Shown piece after piece: positions 1,184-41,432 of a stretch of DNA of 54,666 nt. Source of the stretch: an uncultured Holdemania sp. (GTDB lineage: Bacteria; Bacillota_I; Bacilli_A; Erysipelotrichales; Erysipelotrichaceae). The position numbers and the translations under genes are program-made. The stretch is from assembly GCA_947037125.1 (NCBI GenBank), contig CAMQTJ010000008.1:1-54666 (forward strand), given 5' to 3'. The notes below the pieces were generated by a model that did not search any database, had not been told where the DNA came from, and saw only the letters and a list, made by a program, of their open reading frames with translations. The stretch's first letter is position 1; each line of letters starts with the position of its first letter.

Positions 1184-2641
1184 ATGGAAAATATAAATAA
1201 AAAATGGGAAGACTATAATCTTGATGAGAACCTTATTAAGGCACTACACAAGTTAAATTATGATAAGCCACTTGAAGTACAAGATAAAGTAATACCACTT
1301 CTTTTACAGGAGAAAAATGTTACAGTTAAATCACAAACAGGAACAGGGAAAACAGCATCATTTGGTATTCCTTTATGTCAGTTGATTGATTGGAATGAAA
1401 ACGATGCAGTTGCAATGATTTTAACACCAACAAGAGAATTAGCATTACAAATTAAAAATGAAATATCTAATATTTCAGTTTATAAAAGATTAAAGGTTGC
1501 AGCATTAATTGGGAAACAACCAATTTCTAAGCAAATCACTGATTTAAAACAAAAGACACATATCATTGTAGGAACACCTGGTCGTGTACTTGATCACCTT
1601 AAACGTAATACAATTGATATTAGTAAAATTAAATATTTTGTTTTAGATGAAGCAGATGAAATGCTTAATATGGGATTTTTACCTGATGTTGATACAATCT
1701 TAAAAATGGCTAATAAACAAAAAACAACACTATTATTTAGTGCTACTATGCCAATTCAAATCGTTGAATTAGCTAGACGTTACCAAAAAAAGCCGGTTAT
1801 TATTGAAATGCAATCAGAAGAAATGACAAACCGTATTAATCAATATTATTATCGTGTTGAAGAAGCTGATAAGAAAAAAGTCTTAGTTAGAATATTGATG
1901 GAAAATAAACCTGAAACAGGTATTATCTTTTGTAATACTCAAATTATGGTCGATGAAGTACATGATTATCTTGAAGATATGGAAATATCAGTTGATGAAA
2001 TTCATGGTGGTATGGAACAAGATGATCGTTTAAAAACTATGAGAAACTTCAAAAAAGGAAAATTCAGATTTTTAATTGCGACAGATGTTGCATCTAGAGG
2101 AATTGATATTGAAAAAGTTGATTTAGTAGTTAACTTTGATATGCCTAATGAAAAAGAAACTTATATTCACCGTCTTGGAAGAAGTGCTCGTGTTGAATCT
2201 GAAGGTAAAGGAATTTCTTTACTAACTAAATTTGATAAGCGAATACTTGGAGAAATTGAAGAATTAATCAATGATAAAATCGAAGAAAAAAGCTTATTAA
2301 GATTAGGTAAATATACAAGTATTGAAGTTGTGAAGTCTGTATTCTTAAAAGCTAGTTTAAGTGAAAAAATCTTAAAAGACAATGGTTTAAAACAAGAAAT
2401 AATGAAACTATACATTAATTCTGGTAAACAAAAGAAATTAAGAAAAAGTGATATTGTAGGAGCAATTCTTCAACTTGAAACTGTGAAAATGGAAGATGTT
2501 GGTATTATTACAATACTTGATTCTGTTTCATATGTAGATATTTTAAATAATAAAGGTAATATGGTTAGAAAATTCTTAAATACAACAACAATCAAAGGTA
2601 AAAAAATGAAAGTTGTTGAAGCTAAAGAGTGGTTATACTAA
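1184..2641 (+). CDS. dbpA: DEAD-box ATP-dependent RNA helicase, DbpA/YxiN type
   Basis: 485 aa. ATP-dependent RNA unwinding enzyme, in this subfamily normally acting on 23S rRNA during 50S assembly. The helicase motifs are all visible: AQTGTGKT-like motif I (SQTGTGKT, K56), PTRELALQ, GTPGRVLDH, DEAD at 155-158, SAT at 186-188, IATDVASRGIDIE, and motif VI as HRLGRSAR (329-336) instead of the usual HRIGRTGR. The last ~75 residues (about 412-485) look like the DbpA RNA-binding (RRM-like) domain, which distinguishes it from CshA/CshB types. The last 58 bases of the gene and its terminator recur exactly at 6240, downstream of the flavin reductase gene. Confidence 0.88.
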   Translation: MENINKKWEDYNLDENLIKALHKLNYDKPLEVQDKVIPLLLQEKNVTVKSQTGTGKTASFGIPLCQLIDWNENDAVAMILTPTRELALQIKNEISNISVYKRLKVAALIGKQPISKQITDLKQKTHIIVGTPGRVLDHLKRNTIDISKIKYFVLDEADEMLNMGFLPDVDTILKMANKQKTTLLFSATMPIQIVELARRYQKKPVIIEMQSEEMTNRINQYYYRVEEADKKKVLVRILMENKPETGIIFCNTQIMVDEVHDYLEDMEISVDEIHGGMEQDDRLKTMRNFKKGKFRFLIATDVASRGIDIEKVDLVVNFDMPNEKETYIHRLGRSARVESEGKGISLLTKFDKRILGEIEELINDKIEEKSLLRLGKYTSIEVVKSVFLKASLSEKILKDNGLKQEIMKLYINSGKQKKLRKSDIVGAILQLETVKMEDVGIITILDSVSYVDILNNKGNMVRKFLNTTTIKGKKMKVVEAKEWLY

Positions 2642-2662
2642 TATAATAAAAAAACAGTAATT
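2584..2662 (+). repeat. 79-bp exact direct repeat, left copy (3' end of dbpA)
   Basis: This covers the last 17-18 codons of the helicase gene, its TAA and the upstream arm of its terminator. It matches 6240-6318 base for base (offset 3656). Similarity continues through the terminator, the right copy lacking 4 bases of the palindrome. The two copies bracket a segment with an IS remnant, an AraC-type regulator and a flavin reductase. Confidence 0.97.
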
Positions 2663-2686
2663 TTAAAATTACTGTTTTTATTTTAT
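2647..2686 (+). terminator. Rho-independent terminator of dbpA
   Basis: Perfect palindrome CAGTAATTTT/AAAATTACTG, flanked by A7 upstream and TTTTTATTTTATTT downstream, six bases after the helicase stop. Confidence 0.85.
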
Positions 2687-3202
2687 TTGTTAATCAAATG
2701 CGATTGTAAATCATTATATGAATTAGGCATAATTTTCTAGAAGAAGTATTTAATAGTACTTCATTTAATTTACATGATATCCCCACAGTAGACACAGCAA
2801 ATAAATAAAAATGTGAATATTAAAATGAGGGTCTTTTTCTATGGGAGGAAAAAGAATATTTACAACTGAATAAAAAATACAAACTGTAATTGATTATCAG
2901 AATGGTGTAATATCCTAGGTATAATATTGATAGAACTAAATATCAATACTAAGAATTTTTGGAGTTGGGTTTTAAAATAGAATAACCATGAGAAACTAAT
3001 TGAATATGATCACAAAAATTTAAAGAAGTAGGTGATGTTTCCGAACTAAGGTAAATCATTGTTGTAGGTAATTTTCAATTAATATAACTGATTGTTTGTT
3101 TTTACTACTATACGGATAGTAAGAAAATACAATGATATTTAAGAAAAAAACAATATTATATGTTTTTTAATAAGTGGAAAACTAGGCGATATGAAAATTA
3201 TA
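2687..3202. other. Gene-poor stretch with decayed IS remnant
   Basis: About 515 bases with no intact gene. Its middle part (2841-3031) is recognisable as a broken IS3-family OrfA. ATCCCCACAGTAGACACAGC at 2778-2797 could be near an IS terminus but I cannot pair it with a second end. I see nothing recognisable in the remainder (3032-3202). Confidence 0.5.
2841..3031 (+). pseudogene. IS3-family transposase OrfA remnant
   Basis: The frame from 2841 reads MGGKRIFTTE-stop-KIQTVIDYQNGVIS, like the start of IS3/IS150-group OrfA helix-turn-helix proteins (TxExKLxVVxDYLNG). After several stops and a frameshift, the frame from 2945 reads NTKNFWSWVLK-stop-NNHEKLIEYDHK, which resembles the OrfA stretch V..WV..YN.HE.L..YDPKG. 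No OrfB and no clear inverted repeats remain. It is an old, non-functional remnant lying inside the segment flanked by the helicase-end repeats. The family assignment is from memory of the pattern. Confidence 0.55.
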
Positions 3203-4081
3203 TTATGTTATTGCTTTCAATTGTTTTAGATTATCACGATAATAAGTGGGTGAAAGGTTGTGAAATTTTTTAAACTGACTACTAAAGTAAAAAACGGAAG
3301 AAAACCCTAGTAAATCTGATATTTCAGATATGGATAAGTTAAGATCTTTTAATAATTGCGTAGCTTTAATCATTTTAAAACGTATAATAAATTGAGAGGG
3401 ACTACAATCTACTATATTTTTAATACATCTATAAAGATAACTTTTAGATATATTTAAATGATTAGCTATGTCTTTAACATTTATATGTTTAGAAATATTA
3501 TTCTCTAAAAATAAGATTGTTTTATCGATAATTAGTTGTTCACTAGATTTAGTAGAATCTTTTAAAAGAAACTTAAAATCAGCAGAAATGTAATCCAGTA
3601 GTAATGTATTTATTATATAATCTAAATGAATGCTACTACCATATTTTTTATTAGAACATATATTATATGTATAGTTTAATAAAGACATAAGATAATCATC
3701 AATTATATCTGGATAGAAACGAATTTTTGTTATTCTAAAATTTTTAAAAAATTGCTCCTCATCAAAAGCATTGCTAACACTAAAAAAAATTTCAAAACTA
3801 TCAGTATTATCAAAAGACTTAGCGCTATGCATTGTAAATGGAGGAATAATAATTATTGAGTTTTTTAATGCTGTATATTCATTTTCTTTAAAACTAAAAC
3901 AACAACCACCAGAAGTAATCATGACGATTTTTACATAAGGTGTTATTATGTTATTTAAATATTTATTTGATTGGTTAGGCCAATTCGTGAAATATGCAAA
4001 ATCGAAATTTAATTTTTTAAAATATTCACTGGAAAAATCACTAATTACTTCATAATCATCGAGGCGTGTGTATTTTTTCAT
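3203..4081 (-). CDS. AraC-family transcriptional regulator
   Basis: 292 aa. The C-terminal ~100 residues contain two helix-turn-helix units typical of AraC/XylS proteins: IADHLNISKSYLYRCIK-like first unit (here NVKDIANHLNISKSYLYRCI) and ISEISDLLGFSSVFYFSSQFKKFHN-like second unit, ending in the characteristic SPTYYR. The N-terminal ~150 residues look like a cupin-type effector-sensing domain, with IIIPPFTMHSA in the ligand-binding barrel. It is divergently transcribed from the lipoprotein flavin reductase across a 170-base gap, so it is the probable local regulator of that gene, sensing the substrate or a related compound. The effector is unknown. Both genes sit in the repeat-flanked segment. 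Confidence 0.88.
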   Translation of the reverse strand: MKKYTRLDDYEVISDFSSEYFKKLNFDFAYFTNWPNQSNKYLNNIITPYVKIVMITSGGCCFSFKENEYTALKNSIIIIPPFTMHSAKSFDNTDSFEIFFSVSNAFDEEQFFKNFRITKIRFYPDIIDDYLMSLLNYTYNICSNKKYGSSIHLDYIINTLLLDYISADFKFLLKDSTKSSEQLIIDKTILFLENNISKHINVKDIANHLNISKSYLYRCIKNIVDCSPSQFIIRFKMIKATQLLKDLNLSISEISDLLGFSSVFYFSSQFKKFHNLSPTYYRDNLKQLKAIT

Positions 4082-4179
4082 TTTAATTCCTATAAATATA
4101 CTTTCATTATTTAAATAATAGCATTAAATGACACTTTGTAAAGATAAAATTATTAATTACACTCTTTTATTATCAATAT

Positions 4180-4214
4180 CACAAATGTTGTGTTGAATAT
4201 AATATTTATATAAT
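4180..4214 (+). promoter_or_regulatory. Candidate promoter and operator of the flavin reductase gene
   Basis: Perfect inverted repeat CACAA-ATG-TTGTG (4180-4192) overlaps a possible -35 (TTGTGT, 4188-4193), followed after 15 bases by TATAAT (4209-4214). It lies in the divergent intergenic region between the AraC-type gene and the reductase. A role as regulator site is inference. Confidence 0.35.
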
Positions 4215-4251: not shown

Positions 4252-6207
4252 ATGAAAAAAATACTTACAAATTTAAAGGTTATAGTTGCTTTTGCGCTTG
4301 TTGCTACGCTTATGACAGGTTGTTCGACTGAGGTAAACGATGAAGTTTCAGACAATGGAGTAGTTTATGATGTTAATGAAAGTGCTGATGTAGTTATAGT
4401 AGGTGGAGGTGGTACAGGAATGTCTGCTGCTCTTACAGCAATTGAAAATGGTGCAGAAAGCGTTGTTATTATTGAAAAATTAACTGTGCTTGGTGGATTT
4501 ATGCGAATGAAGACTGGACAATTTTCAGCTCCAGACACAACTATACAGCATGAACAAGGATTGATGGAAGATAGTGCCGAAAGATATGAAGAGGAGATTT
4601 TGAAGTTTGCAAATCTTAATGGAGGTCACCCAATTGAATATTTAGTACACTCTTATGCTACAAACGCATCAGCTGCCTGGGAATGGGTATATGAAATGGG
4701 AGTTAAAGAATATCCATTTAAAACGGATGAAGATGGTAATAAGGCTATAATAAATCCTGGACATATGCCATATGATTATAATAGAGTTTATGTTCCTTTA
4801 GCTAAAGAAGACTCTACAGTAGTAAATCCAATAATTGAAGTATTTGAAAAAGAAATAGTTGCAAATACTAATATTAAAGTTTTTACTGAAGTAGAAGGTA
4901 AACAGTTAACTACAAATGAAAATGGTCAAGTCAATGGTGTTATTGCAAAGGGCAAAGATGGAACTACATATAAATTTAATGCTAATAATGGAGTAATTAT
5001 GTCAACAGGAGGATACGCTGCTAATCCTAATTTGTTTGAACTATACTCTACTGACCTTAATAATTTAATATCAGCAGCTCTTTCTGCTAATGATGGTTAT
5101 GGTTTATATATGATGCAAGAATTAGGAGCAGGAATAACAGAAGAAGCGATGACTTGGATCGAGACATATCCTAAAGGATTGATAAATGAAGGTTCAACAA
5201 CTGCTGGTGTAAATGGAAGTACTGGTACATATTATACGGGTGGAATTTTAGTTAATATTAATGGAGAAAGATTCATAAATGAATGTGCTTGGGAAGATGA
5301 AGTAAGAAATGAGGCACTCAAGGAACAACCAGATAGTTATATGTATGAAGTATTTACAGATGAAATATTTGAAGCAACAAAAGGTACACTTAGAGGTGCT
5401 TATGATAGCTTTAAAGAAGGTGGTACATATTACAATAGACTAATACAAGCAGATTCACTTGAAGAATTAGCAGAAAAATTAGAAATACCTGTTGATAATT
5501 TTGTTTCGACGGTAAATACCTATAACGAATCAGTAGATTCAGGAGTAACTGATGAATTCGGAAGAGAATTTACTGCGAAAACAGGAGAAAATCGTGTAGA
5601 AGTAAAAAATAAGATTGAAGGTAGTAAATATTATGCTTTAAAAATACAACCAATAGTTTTGAGTTCACGTGGAGGAATCATGGTTAATGAATTTAATCAA
5701 GTAATAACTAGTGACAGCGAAGTAATTCCAGGCCTATATGCTGGAGGCGAAGTTGTTGGGCAAATGTGGGGAAAAACGATTGCACCAGGTGTTGGGATGA
5801 ATGGATGCGTGACTTGGGGAAGAATTACAGGAAAAAACGTAATGACATTACCAATGAATGAAAAATATGAAGTTAAGGTCGCTCCGAATATTTTTGATGA
5901 AAATCTATTCGTTTTCGATGATGCTGAACATGTAGGTATAGATTACAAAAATTTGAATGATGGTACTTATACAGGTTCAAGTCAAGGTATGAATGGTTTA
6001 GTTGAAGTTGAAGTAGTAGTAATTGATAGTAAACTTAGCGATATTCAAATTATTAAACATAGTGAAACAGAAAATATCGCTGATGCTGCAATAAAAGAAA
6101 TTCCACAGAATATTATCTTGAATCAATCAACAAATGTTGATAGTATTTCAAACGCAACAATTACTTCTGAAGCTATAAAAAAAGCAGTAGAAGATGCTTT
6201 AAAATAA
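4252..6207 (+). CDS. Lipoprotein FAD/FMN-dependent reductase (fumarate reductase flavoprotein family, extracytosolic)
   Basis: 651 aa. A signal peptide with lipobox LMTGC (lipidated C24) places it on the outer face of the membrane. Residues ~45-80 form the FAD-binding Rossmann fold (VVIVGGGGTGMSAA), followed by a FAD_binding_2 reductase domain to about 535. The family's proton-transferring Arg is present in GERFINE (R340). The C-terminal ~80 residues are an FMN-binding domain with the flavinylation motif DSISNATITS (about 630-639, likely Thr636), normally modified by ApbE; no apbE is in the window. Such proteins use electrons from the membrane to reduce an enoate-type acceptor in anaerobic respiration. 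The QxHPT-like and RLGGN-like substrate motifs of fumarate reductase are absent (ETYPK; TIAPGVGMNG), so the acceptor is probably not fumarate. GGAGG precedes the ATG. The divergent AraC-type gene is its likely regulator. Confidence 0.85.
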   Translation: MKKILTNLKVIVAFALVATLMTGCSTEVNDEVSDNGVVYDVNESADVVIVGGGGTGMSAALTAIENGAESVVIIEKLTVLGGFMRMKTGQFSAPDTTIQHEQGLMEDSAERYEEEILKFANLNGGHPIEYLVHSYATNASAAWEWVYEMGVKEYPFKTDEDGNKAIINPGHMPYDYNRVYVPLAKEDSTVVNPIIEVFEKEIVANTNIKVFTEVEGKQLTTNENGQVNGVIAKGKDGTTYKFNANNGVIMSTGGYAANPNLFELYSTDLNNLISAALSANDGYGLYMMQELGAGITEEAMTWIETYPKGLINEGSTTAGVNGSTGTYYTGGILVNINGERFINECAWEDEVRNEALKEQPDSYMYEVFTDEIFEATKGTLRGAYDSFKEGGTYYNRLIQADSLEELAEKLEIPVDNFVSTVNTYNESVDSGVTDEFGREFTAKTGENRVEVKNKIEGSKYYALKIQPIVLSSRGGIMVNEFNQVITSDSEVIPGLYAGGEVVGQMWGKTIAPGVGMNGCVTWGRITGKNVMTLPMNEKYEVKVAPNIFDENLFVFDDAEHVGIDYKNLNDGTYTGSSQGMNGLVEVEVVVIDSKLSDIQIIKHSETENIADAAIKEIPQNIILNQSTNVDSISNATITSEAIKKAVEDALK

Positions 6208-6239
6208 TTTCACTATCGAATTAAAAGTAGATTTAATAA

Positions 6240-6318
6240 AACAACAATCAAAGGTAAAAAAATGAAAGTTGTTGAAGCTAAAGAGTGGTTATACTAATAT
6301 AATAAAAAAACAGTAATT
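6240..6318 (+). repeat. 79-bp exact direct repeat, right copy (displaced dbpA 3' end)
   Basis: Identical to 2584-2662. It would encode the helicase tail TIKGKKMKVVEAKEWLY and stop, but here has no gene attached: upstream is the end of the reductase gene. This is the arrangement left when DNA enters the 3' end of a gene and restores the gene with its own copy. Confidence 0.97.
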
Positions 6319-6335
6319 AATTACTGTTTTTCTTT
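6303..6335. terminator. Terminator in the duplicated helicase end, between convergent genes
   Basis: Palindrome CAGTAATT/AATTACTG with A7 before and TTTTTCTTTT after. It can serve the reductase gene on + and, read on -, the convergent PatB-type gene ending at 6376. It is 4 bases shorter in the palindrome than the copy at 2647. Confidence 0.75.
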
Positions 6336-6375
6336 TATAGTTTTTAGAATAATAATTATGTTTTATATAATAGTT

Positions 6376-41263: not shown

Positions 41264-41276
41264 AAACAAGTTATCA

Positions 41277-41390
41277 ATATACCATAGACAGTAACGGCAG
41301 ATGCTTAAAAATGTTACCGAGGTACAGATTCGTTATCAATTAATGAAATTTGAACCCGCCTGTCTATTTGATAGGTGGGTTTTATTTTAT
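41277..41390 (+). ncRNA. Ribosomal protein L10 leader with attenuator
   Basis: The leader between the promoter and rplJ carries the L10-leader kink-turn-like region (GTAACGGCAGATGCTT...GTTACCGAGG). A terminator hairpin AACCCGCCT/AGGTGGGTT (41353-41381) is followed by TTATTTTAT. ATAGACAG (41284-41291) is the exact complement of CTGTCTAT (41360-41367), so pairing of the leader's ends would dismantle the terminator. L10(L12)4 binding is expected to favour termination. The mechanism is known from Bacillota; the pairings are read here. Confidence 0.85.
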
Positions 41391-41432
41391 GAGTATATTG
41401 GGGCAATAAAGAACACAGGAGGTATATGAGCT

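Follow-up and report, generated by a model that had tools for sequence, protein, structure and literature searches.

The window, by which we mean the whole stretch of 54,666 nucleotides from an uncultured Holdemania sp. that was analyzed, carries near its start a flavin reductase gene on the forward strand (4252-6207), a real gene whose open reading frame encodes 651 amino acids. The N terminus of the protein is hydrophobic and closes with a lipobox-like LMTGC motif at Cys24 (4252-4323), a predicted export signal and lipid anchor; the cysteine is without variation in an alignment of four proteins and is one of only three in the sequence. Two domains, both above the Pfam cut-offs, occur together in this one protein: FAD_binding_2 (PF00890; residues 46-507, 4387-5772, E 1.3e-45) and, at the C terminus, FMN_bind (PF04205; residues 579-651, 5986-6204, E 7e-15). 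The latter contains the flavinylation-type motif DSISNATITS (residues 630-639, 6139-6168), with FMN predicted on Thr636. Compared with the published ApbE motif, [S/T]GA[S/T] (PMC11334425), the reductase reads SNAT instead of SGAT, an Asn replacing the Gly, and the same Asn is found in both close orthologues. The initial annotation had described a lipoprotein FAD reductase with its own C-terminal FMN-attachment domain and a divergent AraC regulator, and these elements were recovered, the lipid anchor as a prediction.

The regulator gene lies on the reverse strand (3203-4081), divergent from the reductase, and encodes an AraC-type protein of 292 amino acids with Pfam HTH_AraC and HTH_18 matches. 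Orthologues of it (34%-35% identity) adjoin both Holdemania reductases discussed below, in neighborhoods that are otherwise different. Sequence comparison of the intergenic region identified a block (ATCACAAA ... TGAATATnATATnT; 4178-4207) that recurs at both of these Holdemania loci and is a possible operator or promoter; a promoter scan gave no excess over shuffles.

The regulator-reductase pair is flanked by a direct repeat of ∼110 bp, made of the last ∼65 bases of a DEAD-box helicase gene together with the inverted repeat that follows it. The upstream copy (2576-2686, forward strand) includes the 3' end of the helicase gene itself, and the downstream copy (6232-6338, forward strand) lies past the reductase gene. 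Their core is 87 nt and 98% identical (2576-2662 versus 6232-6318), and with a 4-base gap the match reaches 2686 and 6338. No further full copy was found elsewhere in the genome, nor are there such flanking repeats at the two Holdemania loci. The three congeners have no close helicase orthologue, and hence no empty site to compare. The repeat-flanked 3.65 kb appears to be an inserted cassette or a duplication; the repeats may also be an assembly artifact of this 135-contig genome. The G+C content of the reductase gene is 33%, versus about 28% for its neighbors. A foreign base composition was rejected, the third-position value (15.5%) being that of host genes, and nothing therefore indicates that the gene was acquired very recently from a G+C-rich organism. 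Viral contigs searched for the reductase gave no match. Between the helicase and AraC genes, about 560 bp (2642-3202) hold no gene of at least 80 amino acids. The sole Rfam match in the window is a ribosomal protein L10 leader at 41264-41394 (forward strand).

An AlphaFold2 model of the reductase, built with 42 clade sequences as input, reached a mean pLDDT of 85. In structural comparison the model matches urocanate reductase (UrdA, 6T85/6T86) best, at Z 38, followed by flavocytochrome c3 (Z 35-37); ketosteroid dehydrogenases score Z 33-35. The sequence match to 6T85 is far above chance (E 3.6e-41), and the protein scores 241.4 bits against the flavocytochrome c subfamily model of NCBIfam (TIGR01813), under the curated cut-off of 285.45 bits. 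With UrdA the reductase shares the fold, the FAD domain, an extra domain that carries FMN in UrdA, where it is N-terminal (PMC7921117), and is predicted to do so here, and a Tyr at the position of flavocytochrome c3 H365; by analogy, it may also share an extracytosolic respiratory role. With flavocytochrome c3 and the fumarate reductase FrdA of Listeria, a flavinylated extracytosolic enzyme (PMC8238504), it shares the fold.

The active site, however, departs from all of these enzymes. The proton donor of flavocytochrome c3, R402, is the Arg of ITTRDK, eight residues past the Arg of GKRF, and it is exactly this letter that is changed in the Arg402Lys mutant (PDB 1jry). The same role has been assigned to R411 of UrdA, where R560 is likewise essential by mutation (PMC7921117). 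When 97 proteins are aligned, Tyr363 of the 3-ketosteroid delta1-dehydrogenase AcmB (7P18), the base of that enzyme (PMC9736390), falls in the column of R402, and two known families thus agree on the catalytic position. In the window reductase this column holds Glu348 (5293-5295), and in both Holdemania orthologues it holds Asp. The initial annotation had taken the Arg of GERFINE for a kept proton donor, but that residue, R340 (5269-5271), sits eight residues before the R402 column, as seen when the sequence is aligned with flavocytochrome c3 and the mutants of R402. With this claim refuted, while the open reading frame, domains, lipobox, divergent AraC gene and replaced motifs of the same annotation hold, the active site is more unusual than was first thought.

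The remaining residues follow the same pattern. H365, R402, H504, and R544 of flavocytochrome c3, all retained in Listeria FrdA, correspond to Y306, E348, L470, and I510, so that the carboxylate-binding R544 and H504 are replaced by Ile and Leu. The columns of R411 and R560 of UrdA, and those of Tyr363 and Tyr536 of AcmB, are E348 and I510. The columns of T377, E378, and R381 fall in a gappy loop of the alignment and are less sure. In agreement with the motif losses reported from the first reading, the reductase has ETYPK where other enzymes have QxHPT, and the NRLGGN-type motif is replaced by TIAPGVGMNG. Because E348, I510, and L470 replace the known catalytic and binding residues, the reductase, as judged from the alignment, is of neither the Arg type nor the Tyr type.

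The closest relatives found are proteins of Holdemania massiliensis AP2 and H. filiformis DSM 12042, and the reductase is present in three of the 315 genomes of its order, those of the window organism and these two. Both orthologues are uncharacterized. They match over the full length (67%-68% identity), with the same pocket motifs and a divergent AraC gene, but differ in having Asp at 348, other neighbor genes and no flanking repeats. The genes around the two orthologues differ from each other and give no hint of the substrate. The next relatives (∼36%-40% identity) form a large uncharacterized clade of gut Bacillota with the pocket motifs PTFPMG and GGTGVMGP. At 66 positions, many of them in pocket loops, the window and Holdemania group is fixed differently from its sister group, which suggests from sequence a different acceptor in the two groups. 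Trees support the window and Holdemania group at 100/100 and the wider clade at 100/100, separate from flavocytochrome c3/FrdA and from UrdA. The initial annotation had named a firm placement in a characterized clade of known substrate as an outcome that would speak against its proposal. Such membership was rejected by the AU test for the fumarate clade (p 4e-62), the urocanate clade (p 3e-75) and the ketosteroid clade (p 5e-4).

The genome content is consistent with extracytosolic electron transfer. Besides about 17 further homologues, it includes three genes for ApbE and an RNF cluster (locus L114, 13915-19289), whose RnfG has three FMN_bind domains and which adjoins an ApbE lipoprotein gene. 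For multi-flavinylated RnfG proteins, a role in handing electrons to other extracytosolic acceptors has been proposed, and the same electron wiring has been demonstrated for related flavinylated reductases (PMC8238504). One paralogue in the genome groups in the tree with flavocytochrome c3 and Listeria FrdA, so that fumarate is already served, and it retains R402, H504, R544, and H365. Together, the trees, the lost dicarboxylate-binding residues, the paralogues, the ApbE genes and the RNF cluster with its triple-FMN RnfG uphold the earlier suggestion of an extracytosolic respiratory-type reductase whose acceptor is not fumarate.

We therefore consider it fairly probable that the gene encodes an accessory, flavinylated reductase of the fumarate-reductase kind that acts outside the cytosol on a C=C acceptor other than fumarate and urocanate. 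The domains, lost residues, tree position and genome inventory of this proposal are read from sequence. The protein would probably be anchored as a lipoprotein outside the cytosol and supplied with electrons by a membrane complex; RNF with the triple-FMN RnfG is the most likely one, a link drawn from genome content and not from gene neighborhood. The electrons would first reach the FMN bound covalently in the C-terminal domain and then FAD, from which hydride, together with a proton, would be delivered to the C=C bond of the external acceptor. Either the acceptor itself or its effect is probably what the AraC regulator senses, and the presence of the acceptor would lead it to activate the reductase gene. 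Flavinylation, electron route, reaction direction, regulation and the kind of acceptor are thus the parts that we infer. Since both carboxylate-clamping arginines are lost, an acceptor recognized without an arginine clamp, such as a neutral carbonyl-conjugated alkene, appears from the residues to be favored over a simple acrylate.

Such a shift in substrate has a precedent in Cgr2, the digoxin reductase of Eggerthella lenta. This PF00890 protein, too, lacks the fumarate and urocanate reductase residues, along with most of those of ketosteroid dehydrogenases, and nevertheless reduces the neutral lactone of digoxin (PMC5953540). Cgr2 has 16 cysteines, depends on [4Fe-4S] clusters and is a predicted Tat substrate (PMC5953540), whereas the window reductase has the few cysteines noted above and an FMN_bind domain. 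The gut steroid 5beta-reductase was considered as a relative and set aside; it is a different family, as it has been assigned to the Old Yellow Enzyme family (PMC12238238).

The enzyme might still be an acrylate (enoate) reductase acting on a cinnamate-like or other carboxylate, held and protonated by relocated basic residues. Three such residues are conserved, K308, R352, and R473, and to judge by their conservation they might bind a carboxylate differently. R352 (5305-5307), four residues past the catalytic position, shows no variation among all 42 clade members aligned and is a candidate substitute, and K308 and R473 are fixed within the window group. Moreover, of the paralogues and relatives found in gut Erysipelotrichaceae, many retain the urocanate-type set for acrylates. 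The window reductase, in contrast, lacks both carboxylate-binding arginines of fumarate and urocanate reductases, as does the wider clade, and we regard this reading as unlikely, if deserving of attention. We also put forward, as a rather doubtful speculation, a third catalytic type in the fumarate-reductase fold, in which the carboxylate of Glu/Asp348 would occupy the acid/base position, perhaps helped by R352, and serve to reduce a gut compound that is not so far known as a respiratory acceptor.

The reverse direction, an extracytosolic dehydrogenase that resembles ketosteroid dehydrogenases and feeds substrate electrons into the chain, appears improbable: Loop 506-518 resembles the ketosteroid dehydrogenase loop, with the conserved substrate-loop Gly of AcmB kept (G513), and the fold matches as described, but both catalytic Tyr residues are missing, the tree rejects the joining, and the characterized FMN_bind relatives named in PMC8238504 are reductases. 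That the protein is a catalytically dead electron carrier or sensor, as the loss of every canonical catalytic residue checked might suggest, is very improbable, given an intact reading frame, replacement residues that stay fixed (except E/D348) across three species whose proteins are about 67% identical overall, and the 66 group-specific positions.

Enzymes of this kind and their FMN wiring are already known, as is the notion that Erysipelotrichaceae have large sets of reductases. Little et al. 2024, whose study presumably dealt with gut bacterial reductases for cinnamate, itaconate, and resveratrol, reportedly screened H. filiformis, and the acceptor of its orthologue may for this reason be known already. 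Given a fumarate-reductase fold with neither known catalytic set, the acceptor must be found by experiment. The search is made practical by the absence of either residue set, a likely regulator of its own and an orthologue in the cultured H. filiformis. Gut Erysipelotrichaceae have many such reductases, each of which may couple a diet- or host-derived compound to respiration, and the identity of this acceptor would also reveal how the fumarate-reductase fold changes its chemistry.

Two arrangements were observed among related loci. A divergent clade member of H. massiliensis (L067, 5926-7938; 36% identity) has the pocket motifs ATLAV and GGGAMSG, and an additional FAD reductase gene lies near it. 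In several Clostridia (loci L031, L037, L047, L051, and L054), the related reductase lies directly behind a very different second FAD reductase gene, a pairing that possibly represents a two-reductase unit.
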